NCBI RefSeq assembly: GCF_025244825.1
Contig: NZ_CP104263.1
Location: 3,162,001-3,226,000 of the forward strand
Reading direction: 5' to 3'
Origin: Arthrobacter jinronghuae
GTDB lineage: Bacteria; Actinomycetota; Actinomycetes; Actinomycetales; Micrococcaceae
Length of the DNA: 64,000 nucleotides
A program made the position numbers and the translations under genes. Shown one piece after another: positions 39,248-45,608 of this stretch (its first letter is position 1; the number at the start of each line of letters is the position of its first letter). The notes beneath the pieces were generated by a model. It saw nothing but the letters and a program-made list of their open reading frames with translations. It ran no database searches and was not told the DNA's origin.

Positions 39248-40530
39248 CGGGTGCCCTGGCCGGCGGCAGCACCGGCGTCGTCCTGCACTGCTGCCTGCCC
39301 GTCTGTCTCTGTGCCGCGTCGGATGCCGCCGCTGTTGAGGCCCACCGGTGCGCTGGAGGAGCCCTGCTGCGCGGCGTCGTTCGCTGCCGTGATCGCTTCC
39401 ATTACGGTCTGAACGGTGACCAGCCCGAGGAACCGGTCCCGCGGACCCGTCACCAGGGCGGCGCCGGTGCTGGAGACCAGCATGGTGTCCAGCGCGTCAT
39501 TGAGCGTGGACTGCTCGCTGATCACCGGAAGCTTGGGATCAACGGCGTCGGTATGCCGGTCCAGGCGGCTGAGCTGGCGGCGGGAGAGCCACTGGATGGG
39601 CCGCTCCCGTTCGTCCAGGACGACGGCGTTCTGCTCGCCCGCGCCCTGCAGCCGGGAGAGGGTGTCGCTGGCAAGGTCCCCGATGCCGGCCGTAATCGGC
39701 GAGGCCAGCTCCACCTCGTTCACACGGGTCAGCGTGAGCTGCTTCAGGCCGGCGCCGGAACCGATGAAGTTTTCCACAAACTCGTTGGCGGGGTTCGCCA
39801 GGATGCGTTCCGGGGAGTCATACTGCACCAGCTGCGCGCCCTCGTCGAAGATGGCGATCCAGTCCCCCAGCTTCACCGCTTCGTCGAAGTCATGGGTGAC
39901 GCAGACGATGGTCTTGTTCAGTTCGGACTGGATATGCAGCAGTTCGTCCTGCAGCCGCTGGCGGGTGATCGGGTCCACGGCACCGAACGGTTCATCCATA
40001 AGCAGCACGGGCGGATCGGCGGCCAGGGCACGGGCCACGCCCACGCGCTGCTGCTGCCCGCCGGACAGTTCCTTCGGGTAGCGGTCACGGTAGAGGGCCG
40101 GATCGAGGGAGACCAGTTCGAGCAGCTCGTCCACCCGGGACTGGATGCGGTCCTTGTCCCAGTTGAGCATCTTGGGGACGACGGCGATGTTCGCCGCCAC
40201 GGTCATGTGCGGGAAGAGCCCGCCGGCCTGGATGACGTAGCCGATCCCGCGGCGCAGCTGGTCGCCGTCGATCCCGGTGACATCTTCGCCGTCGAGGATG
40301 ATCCGCCCGCTGGAGGGCTCAATGAGCCGGTTGATCATTTTCAGCGTGGTGGTCTTGCCGCAGCCCGACGGGCCAACCAGCATCACGATGCTGCCCCGCG
40401 GGATTTCCATGGTCAGCCCGCCGACGGCCGGTTTGTCCTGTCCGGGGAAGCGCTTGGTGACGTCTTCGAGCAGGATGCCGGTGGCGGTGGCTTTATCGCC
40501 GGTGGTTGGGGTAAGAGTCTCAGACACGGA
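39244..40530 (-). CDS. Osmoprotectant ABC transporter ATPase with CBS domains
   Basis: A 428-residue OpuCA/ProV-type ATPase. Walker A is G-P-S-G-C-G-K-T-T, the signature L-S-G-G-Q-Q-Q-R-V, and Walker B V-L-L-M-D-E-P-F. The part after the nucleotide-binding domain (about 270-390) has two CBS-like modules, which in OpuA-type systems sense ionic strength or c-di-AMP. The GTG at 40530 has GAGG upstream; an earlier start at 40578 lies inside the permease gene. The end is Ala/Gly/Gln-rich. Confidence 0.92.
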   Translation of the reverse strand, partial: SVSETLTPTTGDKATATGILLEDVTKRFPGQDKPAVGGLTMEIPRGSIVMLVGPSGCGKTTTLKMINRLIEPSSGRIILDGEDVTGIDGDQLRRGIGYVIQAGGLFPHMTVAANIAVVPKMLNWDKDRIQSRVDELLELVSLDPALYRDRYPKELSGGQQQRVGVARALAADPPVLLMDEPFGAVDPITRQRLQDELLHIQSELNKTIVCVTHDFDEAVKLGDWIAIFDEGAQLVQYDSPERILANPANEFVENFIGSGAGLKQLTLTRVNEVELASPITAGIGDLASDTLSRLQGAGEQNAVVLDERERPIQWLSRRQLSRLDRHTDAVDPKLPVISEQSTLNDALDTMLVSSTGAALVTGPRDRFLGLVTVQTVMEAITAANDAAQQGSSSAPVGLNSGGIRRGTETDGQAAVQDDAGAAAGQGTR

Positions 40531-41161
40531 TACCTCGCGGGGTTGTGAGCCGGCCGAGGCCGACCAGGAGAAGGTCAAGGATCAGGGCCAGCAGGATGAC
40601 GCCGACGACGCCGACCACTACGGATTCGAGGGAGTTGGCACCGCCCAGGCGGGAGAGTCCGGTGAAGATGAAGCCGCCCAGTCCCGGGCCGAGGGCGTAG
40701 GCCGCGATGGCGGCAATACCCATAACCATCTGGGCGGACACCCGCACGCCGGCGAGGATGACCGGCCAGGCCAGCGGCAGTTCGATGCGCAGCAGTGTGC
40801 GCAGCCGGCTCATGCCGACGCCGCGGGCGGATTCCACGACGGTCGGGGAAATCCCGGCCAGACCCACCACCGCGTTGCGCAGGATGGGCAGGGTGGCATA
40901 GAACGCCACGACGATCACGGCCGGCACGGCGCCGAACCCGAAGGGTGCGATCAGCAGGCCGATCAGGGCGAAGGACGGCAGCGTGAGGCCTACCGCGGAG
41001 ACGCCGTTGGCCACTCCGCTGAGGGTCTTATTGCGGTAAACGAGGGCCGCAATGACCACGGCAATGACCGTGGCGAGGATCAGGCACTGGACAACTAGGC
41101 TGAAGTGCTGCCATCCGGCGAACAGGATCTGTTGATACCGGTCCGCCACGAATTCCCACAC
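40520..41161 (-). CDS. Osmoprotectant ABC transporter permease (first gene of operon)
   Basis: A 213-residue permease with five or six helices and the coupling loop 'ESARGVGMSRLRTLLRIELPLAWPVILAGVR', almost the same as in the partner permease. It starts at GTG with AGAGG upstream. It overlaps the ATPase gene by 11 bp. Gene order permease-ATPase-permease-binding protein is typical of actinobacterial OpuC-like importers. Expression should respond to salt, but no operator could be recognised in the long upstream region. Confidence 0.9.
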   Translation of the reverse strand: MWEFVADRYQQILFAGWQHFSLVVQCLILATVIAVVIAALVYRNKTLSGVANGVSAVGLTLPSFALIGLLIAPFGFGAVPAVIVVAFYATLPILRNAVVGLAGISPTVVESARGVGMSRLRTLLRIELPLAWPVILAGVRVSAQMVMGIAAIAAYALGPGLGGFIFTGLSRLGGANSLESVVVGVVGVILLALILDLLLVGLGRLTTPRGIRV

Positions 41162-41224
41162 ATCAAGACCTCTTCACTTTGGTTGCGTATGTTTCTTGTC
41201 GCCTGTTTCTTGTTGCCGCCCGGC

Positions 41225-41274
41225 GTTTGGTGTCCGTGTTTGGTCCGGGGTTGGTGTCCGGGTTGGTGTCCGGG
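41225..41274. repeat. Degenerate tandem repeat (TTGGTGTCCGGG-like)
   Basis: Four imperfect copies of a T-T-G-G-T-G-T-C-C-G-G-G unit of about 12 bp are seen, the last two nearly identical. Just before it, at about 41189-41217, TGTTTCTTGTCGCC and TGTTTCTTGTTGCC form another near-duplicate. Both lie directly upstream of the osmoprotectant operon. Confidence 0.7.
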
Positions 41275-41361
41275 CGAAAACTACCAAGCAACCTTACCGT
41301 TACCTGCTTCACAAAGCGCCCCGAGGAGCCCCAAACCCGGCTTAACGTGATGTTTTTGCAA

Positions 41362-41508
41362 CGGGCGGGGTGCGGCGGGCCGCGGGGTGACGGGTGGGCT
41401 TGGGGCGGGGCGGGCCGCGGGGTGAGCCGGGGGCGGGGTGGTGGGCTTTGGGCCGGGTGGGCCGGTGGGCTTGGGGACGGGGTGCGCCGGGTGGGCCGGG
41501 TGGGCTTG
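41362..41508 (+). repeat. G-rich simple-sequence tract with G-quadruplex potential
   Basis: About 150 bp of plus strand contains many runs of three to five G separated by short C/T spacers, such as GGGTGGGCTTGGGGCGGGG. It has no A-rich parts and no convincing coding content. Several units (GGGTGGGC, GGGCTTGGGG) recur. It lies in the 665-bp non-coding stretch between the osmoprotectant operon and the 41827-42279 gene. Confidence 0.8.
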
Positions 41509-41540
41509 ACGTTCTGCCGGGGCTTCAGCGGCCGGACGCA

Positions 41541-41759
41541 TTCATAGTGCCGTTGATGTCCTCTGGCCGGTCCAGAGGCAGCATCTACTGCACTATGAAC
41601 GTGCGGGCGGCGCCGGTTGTACAGATAACGGGGCTTACCGGCGTCGGATGTACAGATAACGGGGCTTACCCTCGTCGGTTGTACAGATAACGGGGCTTAG
41701 CGGCGCCGGTTGTACAGATAACGGGGTTATTCGGCCGGCATAGGCCCGTTATCTGTACA
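41541..41759 (+). repeat. Composite intergenic repeat, copy A (palindrome + four 31-bp tandem units + inverted unit)
   Basis: Part 1 is an imperfect palindrome: TTCATAGTGCCGTTGATG (41541-41558) against CATCTACTGCACTATGAA (41582-41599), 16 of 18 positions paired, with a nested 7-bp stem in the loop. Part 2 is four tandem copies of TGTACAGATAACGGGG starting at 41618, 41649, 41680 and 41711, a strict 31-bp period. Part 3 is an inverted copy, CCCGTTATCTGTACA, at 41745-41759, which can pair with the last direct copy as a 15-bp stem. A second version occurs at 43999-44189. No protein is encoded. Confidence 0.92.
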
Positions 41760-41826
41760 CCGGATTTTCGGAAACCGCCCCAGCCCCCTCCGCTACGAGG
41801 ATCACTGTGCAGCGGGCGACGTCCGG

Positions 41827-42279
41827 TCAGTGCCGGAAACCGAAACGCCCGTCGACAACGTCCGGCAGGGCAACCACACCCTGGCGGCCGGGCCGCGGAA
41901 GCCCTCGCTGCTTTCGCACCCTCGCAGCCCGGTATTCCCTTCGGGTCGCCGCAACAAGCCGGAAGGAACAACCGAGCATCACCGCCACGAGAATCAGCGC
42001 GGTCACTCTCAAGACCCAGTCGTCTGACGGGAAAAGGCCAACCCCGGCGAAAAAGAGAATGAACACCAAATACAGGATGAGGAGGAGCACCCCCACCACC
42101 CAGGAATTGGGGTGGTCCGACGGCGGAGCACCGTCCGGCCGGAACCCGAGTTCGTCCGGGGCGTAGCTGTGGAGATTGCCAAACTCCGTCCGATGAAGGA
42201 ATCGCTTCTCGCCCCGGGCCAGGAGCCTCCGGTGCTCTGCGAAGACTTCCTCGTCGGTGAGCATCCTGTTCAGTGTCAT
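41827..42279 (-). CDS. Hypothetical protein with two membrane helices
   Basis: A 150-residue protein without a family I can name. Residues 1-58 are soluble and acidic/basic mixed. Helices lie at about 61-82 and 88-110, followed by a basic cytoplasmic tail rich in Arg. GGGGGA lies close to the ATG. The composite repeat copy A begins 68 bp beyond its stop and could act as its terminator. Confidence 0.65.
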   Translation of the reverse strand: MTLNRMLTDEEVFAEHRRLLARGEKRFLHRTEFGNLHSYAPDELGFRPDGAPPSDHPNSWVVGVLLLILYLVFILFFAGVGLFPSDDWVLRVTALILVAVMLGCSFRLVAATRREYRAARVRKQRGLPRPGRQGVVALPDVVDGRFGFRH

Positions 42280-42352
42280 TCGTCCCCCATCATTGTCGGC
42301 GTTAAGTTATTCGGTCCGGACTTCCGCCGGCAAAGAAAACGGCCCGCCCAAA

Positions 42353-43795
42353 TCAGCCCTGCCGCACGCGGGACCGAAGACGGGCAAGGAGGTGCTCCTC
42401 GGCGTCGGGCCCCGCCTTGATGCCGGCCGGCACCCGGAAGAAGAAGACCAGACCGACCACCCACCATGCGGCGAACAGTACCCACGGCTCGACGCCCAAC
42501 GCCGCAGGCATGCCCGGCATGTAGAGGCTGAACAGAGCCAGGCCGAAGACGGCGGCGGCAATACCGATGGCGATGCCGCCGTTGCCGCGCCCGCCGATCC
42601 GCAGCGGACGGTCCATTGCCGGTTCGCGGCGGCGCAGGATGAGGAATGAAATCGCCACCAGGGTGTAGGCCAGCACGATGCTGGGCGCCCCGGAGTCCAC
42701 CAGCCAGCCGAGCATCTCCGCCCCGCCAAACGGAGCGAGGAAACTCAGTGCCCCGATGAACAGCAGGGCGTTGTGCGGGGTGTGATACTTCGGATGCAGG
42801 CGGCCGAACCAGGCCGGGAGCATGCCGGAACGGGCCAGGGAATACATCAGCCGGGAAGCGCCCATCAACAGGGAGTTCCACGAGGTGAGGATGCCTGCAA
42901 TGCCGCCGGCAATCAGGATCTTGGCCATGATGTCCGAGCCGAACATGGCTCCGACGGCGTCCGCCGTCGCAATGTCCGTCTGCGCCAGGTCTCCGGCGGA
43001 CATAGCCGACGAAGTGGTCAGCACCACCATGAGGTACCAGATGGTTGCCAGCACCACGGAGACAACCACGAGCTTGCCGATCTGCTTGGCGGGGATGTTC
43101 ACTTCCTCGGCGGACTGCGGAATCACGTCGAAGCCGATGAACAGGAAGGGCACCACCACCAGGACCGCGAAGAACCCGGTCATGCCGTTGTTGATCCACG
43201 GCTCCATGTTGGCCACGGACCCTCCGGCGAAGGACCCGGCGATCATCACCAGCCCGATGGCCAGCAGGAAAAGCACCACGAAGGTCTGCACCACGCCCGC
43301 TTCCTTCACGCCGCGGATGTTGATCCAGGTGATTACGACGGCGGCAACCGCACCTACCAGCGCCCAGGTCAGGTGCACGTCGAAGCCCGCCACGGTCCAC
43401 AGGTGAATCTGGCTGAGGTCCGGGAAGATGTACTGCACGGTGCGGGGCAGGGCCACGGCTTCGAATGCCACGATGGTCACATAGCCGCCGATGATGGCCC
43501 AGGATCCGATGAAGGAGGTCCGCGGACCCATAGCCCGCATGATGTAGTTGTGCTCGCCGCCGGCCTTGGGCATGGCCGCGCAGAGCTCGGCGTACGTCAG
43601 TCCGACCACCGCCATAATGACGCCGCCGGTCAGCATGGCCAGCACCGAGCCGAGGGTGCCGGCATTGATCAGCCAGTCGCCGGTGAGCACCACCCAGCCG
43701 AAACCGATCATTGCGCCGAAACCGAGCGCCAAAACGTCAATCCGGCCGAGGACTTTCTTGAGCGAGGGCTCGGTTTCGTGGAGCGAGGTTCCCAC
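42353..43795 (-). CDS. APC superfamily amino acid permease
   Basis: A 480-residue transporter with about 12 helices. The opening motif 'RIDVLALGFGAMIGFGWVVLTGDWL' and 'GFDVIPQSAEEVNIPAKQIGKLVV' (conserved acidic residues of helix 6/loop) are typical of APC permeases near the YhdG/EAT-like group. The GTG at 43795 has AAAGGGG upstream; the frame continues to 43891 without homology. The substrate is unknown, possibly an amino acid or ethanolamine-like amine. Composite repeat copy B lies just upstream. Confidence 0.87.
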   Translation of the reverse strand: MGTSLHETEPSLKKVLGRIDVLALGFGAMIGFGWVVLTGDWLINAGTLGSVLAMLTGGVIMAVVGLTYAELCAAMPKAGGEHNYIMRAMGPRTSFIGSWAIIGGYVTIVAFEAVALPRTVQYIFPDLSQIHLWTVAGFDVHLTWALVGAVAAVVITWINIRGVKEAGVVQTFVVLFLLAIGLVMIAGSFAGGSVANMEPWINNGMTGFFAVLVVVPFLFIGFDVIPQSAEEVNIPAKQIGKLVVVSVVLATIWYLMVVLTTSSAMSAGDLAQTDIATADAVGAMFGSDIMAKILIAGGIAGILTSWNSLLMGASRLMYSLARSGMLPAWFGRLHPKYHTPHNALLFIGALSFLAPFGGAEMLGWLVDSGAPSIVLAYTLVAISFLILRRREPAMDRPLRIGGRGNGGIAIGIAAAVFGLALFSLYMPGMPAALGVEPWVLFAAWWVVGLVFFFRVPAGIKAGPDAEEHLLARLRSRVRQG

Positions 43796-43998
43796 CCGGC
43801 ACCCCTTTCCATGTCGTGCCGCCTCAAGGGGGCAAGTGATGACGCAGCATGGGTGCGGAGAGTGGCTCCGGCTGCGTTGACGGAAGAACAACGCTAATGC
43901 AATTTGTGTTTGCGGTCACATCGGCACTTCACAAGGGTTTACGTTCTGTGCGAAGCCCCATTTGGGTGGGAAGTTCTGCGCGATTCACTGGCTCTGGC

Positions 43999-44189
43999 GC
44001 GTTCATAGTGCAGTAGATGCCCCCGGGCCAGCCGGGAGGCTGCATCAACTGCACTATGAACGTGCGGGCGGCGCCGGTTGTACAGATACCGGGGTTTCGC
44101 CGCGCCGGTTGTACAGATAACGGGGCTTCGCCGCGCCGGTTGTACAGATAACGGGGTTATTCCGGGGCGATAAGCCCGTTATCTGTACA
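43999..44189 (+). repeat. Composite intergenic repeat, copy B (palindrome + three 31-bp tandem units + inverted unit)
   Basis: This has the same architecture and orientation as copy A. The palindrome is GTTCATAGTGCAGTAGATGC (44001-44020) against GCATCAACTGCACTATGAAC (44042-44061), 19 of 20 paired. Tandem units start at 44079, 44110 and 44141, again at 31-bp spacing; the first reads TGTACAGATACCGGGG. The inverted unit CCCGTTATCTGTACA is at 44175-44189. From ACTGCACTATG to TACAGATA the two copies are identical over about 40 bp. The rest of the 43796-44244 gap holds no gene. Confidence 0.92.
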
Positions 44190-44244
44190 CCCCATGAGTT
44201 TCCGGGGCTAAGCCTCCACGTCGGTGACGCGGAGCAAGGCGCGG

Positions 44245-44844
44245 CTACTCTTCTCCAACGACCTCGACGATCACGTTCATGCCGTCATCCGGGTGGTAGT
44301 TCCAAAAGGTGGAGAACTCTCCCCACTGAGCAGTTTGCGTCCCGTCCAGGGCCCGGGTATTTCCTAACCTGCTGCCCACGCTGTCGGGCATATCGATGGC
44401 CGACAAAACGCAATGTATGTCCAGGAAATCGGCTCCATAGCCCAAGGTCTCTTCACCTTGACCGGACATGGTCAGGCTCTGTCCCTCGTCGCCAAGCTCT
44501 ATGCCTGTCTGGTCCGTGAGCTCGCAGAGCTCCACGGCGTCGAGCAGAGCGGTGGAATTCGAAGACCTATCAATCTGCGCAAGCAGGAGCCCCGCGCCCA
44601 GACCAACAACAAGTCCAGCACCGGCGAACAACGCGTAGTTCCGCCGCGACGGAGGCAACTGGACCGTAGGCGGGTACGGCGTCATACCGAACGGCAGTGC
44701 CGCGCGATTCTCCGGTCCGGTCCCGGACTGCGCGGGAGGAGCGGGAGGGGCCGGAGGCAGCGGCGGCATGGGTTTCATCCGCGCACTCTCCGTGCCACCG
44801 GCAGGGTTCTGCGGATGCGGATACGGTGCGTCATCCTGCGTCAT
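44245..44844 (-). CDS. Hypothetical membrane-anchored protein, Pro-rich N-terminus
   Basis: A 199-residue protein. The first 70 residues are Pro/Ala-rich and cytoplasmic, followed by a single helix (about 70-90, 'ALFAGAGLVVGLGAGLLLAQI') and an extracellular domain of about 105 residues with two Cys. The start ATG shares one base with the stop of the preceding gene (TAATG), so the two are translationally coupled and likely act together. No family recognised. Confidence 0.65.
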   Translation of the reverse strand: MTQDDAPYPHPQNPAGGTESARMKPMPPLPPAPPAPPAQSGTGPENRAALPFGMTPYPPTVQLPPSRRNYALFAGAGLVVGLGAGLLLAQIDRSSNSTALLDAVELCELTDQTGIELGDEGQSLTMSGQGEETLGYGADFLDIHCVLSAIDMPDSVGSRLGNTRALDGTQTAQWGEFSTFWNYHPDDGMNVIVEVVGEE

Positions 44845-45608
44845 TACTGCTTCTCCCACTTTCCGCATCGGCTGGATTTGAAGTCTTGGCCCTCGGACAG
44901 GGTGACAGTGGGCCTGCCTCCGCCGGGGAGATCGTTTTGCAGGATGTCGTCGCCGTTCGAACCGCTTCGGTAAATTCCCCAGTAGCAGCTGGAGCCGACG
45001 TCAGCCGCGGTTGTGTAGGTCCCCGGCGAAACGTTGGTGCCCACCGTCCAGGTCCCGTCGCTGATAGTGTCAGCTGCCTTCTGCTTCTCCGCGGCGGAGA
45101 CAGCAGATTCCCGCTTTTCCACATCGGCTTCGGCCTTTGCGGCAGCTTCTTCTCGCTCCCCTACCTTCATCTCCCGGGCGTACATGCCGCTGGAGAGCTT
45201 GTTGTAGTCCTCCTTCATGACGCTGTAGTCGTCCTGGGACTTCTCGAGCATCGACTGGCGCTGCGCCGATTCTTCCGAAAGCGCGATGTATTCCTCGCTC
45301 CGGGTCGGGTCGGTCAGGAAATGTCCACCTACAGCGCCGCCGGCAAGCAGTACGACGCCGGCAGCCGCCAGCCAGATCCGTGCGGCTTTGCGCTTCGCCG
45401 CCTGTCGGTCCGCCCGCGGTTCGTCCGCCGGGTTCGTGGCCTTGAGCCGGTCTCCTCGTGCTTTCCTACCCCGCAGGGACGCCGGGGTATCGGTTTCCGG
45501 GGCAGGCGGCGGAGGAGGTACTGAGCCGGCAGTCACCATCTCTGCGGTTTCTGGTTCTGCAACCGGCGGCTGCTCCGGGGTGGACTGACTGGGGTGCTGC
45601 TGCGACAT
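44844..45608 (-). CDS. Hypothetical membrane-anchored protein with coiled coil
   Basis: A 254-residue protein. Residues 1-75 are Pro/Glu-rich and disordered, a helix spans about 78-98, and 105-185 is a highly charged region predicted as coiled coil ('EREEAAAKAEADVEKRESAVSAAEKQ'). The last 65 residues form a small domain starting 'DGTWTVGTNVSPGTYTT' with two Cys, a type seen in many uncharacterised actinobacterial surface proteins. ATG 45608 was chosen because it starts the conserved-looking part; an earlier start at 45686 is possible. Confidence 0.65.
   Translation of the reverse strand: MSQQHPSQSTPEQPPVAEPETAEMVTAGSVPPPPPAPETDTPASLRGRKARGDRLKATNPADEPRADRQAAKRKAARIWLAAAGVVLLAGGAVGGHFLTDPTRSEEYIALSEESAQRQSMLEKSQDDYSVMKEDYNKLSSGMYAREMKVGEREEAAAKAEADVEKRESAVSAAEKQKAADTISDGTWTVGTNVSPGTYTTAADVGSSCYWGIYRSGSNGDDILQNDLPGGGRPTVTLSEGQDFKSSRCGKWEKQ

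Follow-up and report, generated by a model that had tools for sequence, protein, structure and literature searches.

BOX elements of Streptococcus pneumoniae follow the plan boxA-boxB(n)-boxC; according to the available portion of PMC3049150, copies with more boxB modules are more variable, alternative end modules occur in S. suis, and the flanks give no clear evidence of insertion. REP and REPIN sequences, in the excerpts available of PMC3116915, PMC3733652 and PMC2817692, are short extragenic palindromes that use an inverted pair as hairpin unit and form tandem clusters. Bacterial miniature inverted-repeat transposable elements (MITEs), RUP (PMC3049150) and the enterobacterial RU (PMC2759123) are, in the accessible text of these sources, small, palindromic, intergenic and presumably moved in trans. 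Here we describe two composite intergenic repeats, copies A and B, from Arthrobacter jinronghuae (NCBI RefSeq assembly GCF_025244825.1). They lie in a 64,000-nucleotide stretch of contig NZ_CP104263.1 (the window), which covers positions 3,162,001-3,226,000 of this one-contig 3.64-Mb genome. We read A and B, with moderate confidence, as composite members of a dispersed, non-coding and non-autonomous intergenic repeat that has a BOX-like build and REP-like hairpins and is mainly tolerated by its host. The family is apparently undescribed so far.

Composite build of copies A and B

Both copies consist, on the forward strand, of a 59-bp palindrome (module P), an 18-bp link, an array of direct units (module U) and one inverted U unit that begins 33 bp after the start of the last direct one. 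The imperfect palindrome of copy A spans 41541..41599, with arms at 41541-41558 and 41582-41599. It is followed at 41618..41726 by four direct units, TGTACAGATAACGGGG repeating at an exact 31-bp period (starts 41618, 41649, 41680 and 41711), the last of which forms the U hairpin (41711..41759) with the inverted unit at 41744-41759. Copy B carries P at 44002..44060 (arms 44002-44019 and 44043-44060), three direct units of the same period at 44079..44156 (starts 44079, with one mismatch, 44110 and 44141) and a U hairpin at 44141..44189 that closes on the inverted unit at 44174-44189. The longest exact match between the copies, 41 bp, spans the palindrome-array junction. The original prediction, made from the sequence alone, had described two composites of one build, with four and three units at a 31-bp period and about 40 bp of identity across that junction, and the coordinates bear this out. 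Within the window, the U 16-mer occurs nine times at up to 3 mismatches, against a mean of 0.16 and a maximum of 2 in 100 shuffles. The U hairpins fold at -37.5 (A) and -32.2 kcal/mol (B) and the palindromes at -35.2 (A) and -46.1 kcal/mol (B), all raw energies without a shuffle control.

As in BOX elements, so far as the accessible text describes them, distinct end modules surround a tandem module of variable number, clusters with other repeats occur, and longer arrays are more variable; the corresponding plan here is P - U(n) - inverted U. Unlike BOX, which comes from another phylum, the tandem unit is here one arm of the closing hairpin, with n direct units facing a single inverted one. The likeness drawn here is one of architecture.

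The modules recur well beyond the window. Across the A. jinronghuae genome, the U 16-mer is found 58 times (29 + 29) at up to 2 mismatches, compared with 0 for a reversed-pattern control. A covariance model of the U hairpin (R1), built from 22 aligned copies from this genome, detected 26 U-type hairpins, which occupy 15 intergenic loci, and gave one further weak match on a single strand. The two 16-bp arms of a U hairpin begin 33 bp from each other in all but one of the 23 hairpins that a script listed, the exception being at 34 bp; the script sought distances of 32-34 bp only. Direct repeats outside the window have a period of 41 bp, sometimes 42, and in this genome the 31-bp period was seen solely behind P. 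Back-to-back U units of opposite direction account for spacings of 38 and 49 bp. As a side observation, five of the 15 loci fall inside 100 kb (3,155-3,254 kb), and the listed R1 matches of the relatives G013 and G008 likewise crowd in one region.

P, usually 59 bp long, is a second dispersed family beside U. The loci examined hold 28 distinct P palindromes, several of them orthologues of one another, with arms 36-45 bp apart (exactly 41 in 23 cases). At several places P and U keep a fixed register: after 15 of the 28 palindromes a U unit of the same direction starts 17-20 bp downstream, and in 12 of these 15 composites a second unit follows 31 bp further on. The other 13 have no U in register, and 10 of them have none within 150 bp. 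Composites occur at the A and B places, at the L046 place in a second strain of the species (G059) and in the relative G015, and at about 1.41 and 1.64 Mb in G009, two sites that by coordinates lie far from its A/B place at 3.06 Mb. In G020, one P (L194) is followed by 41-bp units.

In relatives, two further hairpin modules (S and T) stand, by eye, in front of P at the A/B place. Module S (CTTCTGTACAGCTGATGCTG) appears to be built like U, several direct arms being followed by one inverted arm (L129:1530-1800 in G008, L120, L124 and L125). Module T is another intergenic tandem repeat of about 92 bp with GTCCCAC/GTGGGAC arms, seen at L050:2465-2960 (A. jinronghuae 3,253,964-3,254,459), and stretches similar to it also precede P in several relatives.

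Next to the hairpin, direct half-units build up in tandem through local duplication. In the A. jinronghuae loci, spacers of the 41/42-bp units have an identity of 0.79 when they belong to one locus (38 pairs) and of 0.49 when they come from different loci (262 pairs); the 31-bp spacers, few in number, give 0.83 (4 pairs) and 0.74 (6 pairs). Because spacers are alike within a locus and unlike between loci, we conclude that the arrays grow in place, and arrays of n direct units plus one inverted unit can be read as records of this local growth. The same near-identity within a locus (0.79) departs from the unrelated spacers of a CRISPR-like array; no search for cas genes was made.

Variation between strains and species

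All 15 loci are common to G059, at about 93-99% identity. Unit number differs between the two strains at eight of them (L040, L041, L043, L044, L046, L047, L049 and B), and at copy A the number is equal but the spacers show replaced units, so that the array has changed at nine of 15 loci. Among the six loci without a difference in unit number, four are single hairpins (L045, L048, L051 and L149; 0/4 differ). In practical terms, the arrays are variable-number markers in which two strains of the same species differ. Beside L046, G059 has a P-U composite that is missing in our genome; a clean insertion was ruled out as its origin, since the stretch is a replacement. Separately, a segment of about 4 kb at L045:1671-5675 (A. 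jinronghuae 1,738,870-1,742,874) is missing in G059 and is bounded by two copies of one terminator hairpin, ACCCCGGTCTTCGGACCGGGGTGTTTTCTTTTG, which gives it the look of a segment swapped between the two copies.

Using flank pieces, we sought 13 loci in the relatives G014, G015, G008 and G027. Twelve were found in all four and L149 only in G008; the stretches compared were the twelve in G014, G015 and G008, L149 in G008 and three in G027. Under a lenient test (U with up to 4 mismatches per arm; 12 loci, without L149, A and B), a U hairpin stood at the orthologous place in 12/12 cases in G059, 7/12 in G014, 3/12 in G015 and 5/12 in G008. The plainest case is L040, where a 718-bp array lies between two convergent genes in A. 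jinronghuae and an array is likewise present in G059; it is absent in G014, G015, G008 and G027, whose flanking genes nearly adjoin. Comparison of filled and empty sites yields at most a GC-rich CCCGG on both sides as a possible target duplication. A comparison of orthologous regions with and without the element had been proposed to find insertion boundaries; it bears out presence and absence at orthologous places, and no clean target duplication emerged.

Module content differs at other places too. G015 has a P palindrome within the interval at six of 12 loci (L041, L043, L044, L046, L047 and L050, the last having P in A. jinronghuae too), and at L041, L043 and L047 P is present with no U unit left where A. 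jinronghuae has U. At L051 only one arm occurs in G014 and G027, and at L048 a stub of an arm occurs in G014 and G015, a misplaced alignment at L045 in G014 being left out of this comparison. This comparison and the remnants at L048 and L051 indicate that hairpin presence changes between species and that copies decay. From presence and absence across species, we infer that the repeats are mobile.

Relatives, enzymes and carriers

Applied to 59 relatives at E<=1e-3, R1 matched 24, comprising 21 of the 28 genomes of the genus together with G034, G036 and G040. The G040 match (L074) was rejected as a family member, being probably a chance hairpin, as it lacks the core. Scans of the family and the order used stricter filters that drop weak matches: at E<=1e-6, 23 of 197 family genomes matched, across eight of 32 genera, and at E<=1e-7, three of 297 genomes sampled from the order, all from the same bacterial family as A. 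jinronghuae. The exact hairpin pattern was found in Arthrobacter sp. ATA002, sp. zg-Y844, A. zhaoxinii zg-Y108 and sp. zg-Y238, in a search that may omit records very near the window's own.

Known families and carriers gave no counterpart. In Rfam 15, the window had no match at the gathering threshold, and at relaxed E two microRNA-model matches lay far below threshold. Copy A matched no phage or plasmid record and the exact hairpin pattern was found in no viral contig; on these null searches we rejected phage, plasmid or viral carriage. The 15-mer TGTACAGATAACGGG was not found in the printed literature searched, at least one of six 11- to 13-mers occurred in 18 papers, none of the 15 listed having a title on dispersed bacterial repeats, and no named Arthrobacter repeat family appeared in the open-licence literature searched by genus and phylum. 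The RepRanger study, in its available portion, counts inverted repeats in A. livingstonensis (PMC12306157), and the accessible part of PMC2267715 names no Arthrobacter. A search across Arthrobacter had been proposed, together with the notion that fixed architecture and variable unit number mark a dispersed, mobile or self-expanding element of REP/REPIN or MITE type. That notion was borne out: the repeats, which are not restricted to this pair and had no match in the Rfam, phage and plasmid searches, occupy 15 loci in A. jinronghuae and occur in 21/28 genus genomes, with recurring composites, orthologous presence and absence, and growth in place.

RAYT transposases are the usual explanation for REP-like palindromes, and a linked RAYT or IS200-type gene had been suggested for the present element as well. 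A family-model search for Y1_Tnp (PF01797; RAYT, IS200/IS605) found none in the 28 genus genomes, two in the 59 relatives overall, neither with R1 matches, and eight in the 197 family genomes, none among the 23 with R1 matches, where about one overlap is expected by chance; G059 lay outside these samples and no search was aimed at other enzyme classes. We rejected the linked partner gene on its absence from the repeat-bearing genomes tested. RAYT is not needed, though it is not shown to be avoided, because about one chance overlap is expected. A hairpin family that turns over without RAYT would offer a fresh system for studying how repeats spread. Besides this lack of a Y1/RAYT gene in the genus sample, the repeats differ from the REP and REPIN systems, as portrayed in the accessible parts of the reports, in forming arrays of half-hairpins. 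The GTAG/CGTC tag of REP is not conserved, with GTAG at the foot of 6/22 A. jinronghuae hairpins (four at L040, two at L049) and CGTC at 1/22, and in a TGAGCAG variant CTAC/GTAG is paired inside the stem. Copy number differs too, REP usually exceeding 100 per genome, compared with 26 hairpins in A. jinronghuae and 33 and 36 paired copies in two genomes of a second genus, g10.

The g10 palindromes point to a possible wider family. The pattern AGTTTTTGTACAGMTAAYGCC, at up to 3 mismatches, identified 143 arms in the two, 138 of them paired at exactly 40 bp, giving 36 paired palindromes in G195 and 33 in G111. With a weight matrix from the g10 arms, the shuffles scoring as high numbered 8 of 4000 for S, 27 for U, 95 for the TGAGCAG form, 328 for P and 3757 for T. 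A single superfamily for all modules was rejected, kinship of P with the g10 arms not being established at 328/4000. A narrower idea, which we regard as possible but doubtful, is that U, S, the g10 AGTTTTTGTACAG.. palindromes and perhaps P belong to a single hairpin family that spans the Micrococcaceae, shares the core GTRCAGNTRAYG and is spread by a non-RAYT enzyme. If true, a REP-like lifestyle would have arisen a second time and independently, here with arrays that grow by half-hairpins. One locus, L231 (genus g46), is matched by the U model and also by the P pattern, a hint of kinship between these two. The core may also resemble Xer/dif half-sites.

The arms also bear on whether a classical DDE insertion sequence left the repeats behind as MITE remnants, in which case the palindrome arms would be its terminal inverted repeats, fused together. 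Size, palindromy, intergenic position and the lack of coding sequence fit this origin. However, with 138/143 g10 arms paired at exactly 40 bp, no pair was seen to flank a longer element, and the P arms of A. jinronghuae sit in palindromes except for one damaged copy and two single arms with 3 mismatches; lone P arms do occur in other genomes, such as G026. Arm pairs flanking a longer, insertion sequence (IS)-like element were found neither in the A. jinronghuae P scan nor in the two g10 genomes, though no IS search was made. In this the repeats differ from MITEs, RUP and RU as the available text presents them, since neither a parent IS with matching ends nor a target duplication was found, again with no dedicated IS search. 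We give a DDE origin very little credence.

In our preferred reading, that of a dispersed, non-autonomous repeat, an enzyme other than a Y1/RAYT transposase, encoded by the host or by an IS and working in trans, would copy hairpin-bearing and perhaps single-stranded DNA or insert it at new places. Slippage during replication or unequal exchange would afterwards lengthen and shorten the arrays, helped by the ability of any direct unit to pair with the single inverted one, and the elements would be mainly tolerated rather than required. Several observations weigh against this reading. No mobilizing enzyme was identified, Y1/RAYT being the class searched; a clean target-site duplication was nowhere resolved, with L040, the most favourable case, giving only its short GC-rich sequence; and the remnants at L048 and L051 argue for loss in addition to gain. 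Between the two strains all 15 loci are fixed, hence no recent transposition is seen, and extra arms at one place could stem from recombination among existing copies.

Gene context and neighbouring features

Gene context was taken from a simple codon-score gene caller that misses some genes. By its calls, five of the 15 A. jinronghuae loci lie between convergent genes, nine between tandem genes and one (L051) between divergent genes, and one ORF (open reading frame) start overlaps L048. For 27 best-match loci in other genomes of the genus and family, drawn from 37 loci outside g10, the tally was 16 tandem, five convergent, two divergent, two inside a predicted ORF and two at an edge. Within g10, 16 of 18 palindromes examined were intergenic by the same caller (seven convergent, nine tandem, none divergent), and 14 of these 16 have their start no more than 15 bp from a predicted stop codon; L238/L239 and L242/L257 look orthologous by their flanks, so the 18 do not count as independent cases. 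In G111 and G195 (L238-L257), we also noted that palindromes often begin a few bases from the stop codon, sometimes of both convergent genes.

Such positions raise the possibility that the hairpins are selected RNA 3' ends, acting as transcription stops or mRNA 3'-end stabilizers in one or both directions. A gene 3' end adjoins 14 of the 15 A. jinronghuae loci, 14 to 789 bp off, a weak indication given that random orientation would produce about three in four; the g10 hairpins near stop codons point the same way. Nor does the inverted unit follow a family rule of facing the gene 3' end, L041 and L050 being turned the other way. In the 22-copy alignment, the 23-pair U stem has 84.5% of cells paired, compared with a shuffle mean of 81.6 and far above slid versions, and 9/23 stem pairs are kept by two-sided changes (shuffle mean 6.0; 12/500 shuffles as high). 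Two-sided changes alone are no proof of selection, however, because the arms copy one unit and template switching corrects palindromes, so that palindrome-templated repair can also keep arms matched. Unlike intrinsic terminators, the A and B hairpins have no T-run directly after them on either strand, and a scan limited to loops of 3-8 found three terminator-like sites in 41150-44300, none inside either element. Upstream of the element at L042 and at L043 stands a canonical stem with a T-tail, which relatives lacking the hairpin have as well, and the hairpins themselves are lost or halved in relatives. Taken together, we consider a selected role at RNA 3' ends unlikely.

The arrays could instead be multi-site targets for a DNA-binding protein, with units on one helix face. 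Consistent with this, the two direct periods, 31 and 41 bp, are roughly one turn of the helix apart, and loci with different spacers retain the core motif. Yet the period of 42 also occurs, simple tandem duplication likewise yields a constant period, the gene 3' ends beside 14/15 places leave only one between divergent genes, and unit number varies between strains, with whole arrays missing in relatives. A binding array appears to us quite improbable, and a mainly tolerated dispersed repeat remains our preferred account of A and B.

The genes around A and B all lie on the minus strand. To the left of A, an ABC-transporter permease gene (BPD_transp_1; 40520..41161) has its 5' end towards the element. 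An ORF without Pfam match (41827..42279) faces copy A with its 3' end, and another (44245..44868), also without Pfam match and below the codon-score cut, faces copy B. The inverted units had been placed 68 and 56 bp from the 3' ends of minus-strand genes; both distances hold for the ORFs at 41827 and 44245, the latter being a plausible but not proven gene, given its lack of a Pfam match and its failed codon score. Between the copies lies an amino-acid permease gene (42353..43816; start codon unsettled, longest ORF to 43891), which is missing at this place in the relative G014, where both composites are kept. Directly upstream of copy A, window positions 41360-41530 are G-rich and partly repetitive, and G-rich stretches that differ in sequence stand upstream of copy A in some relatives.

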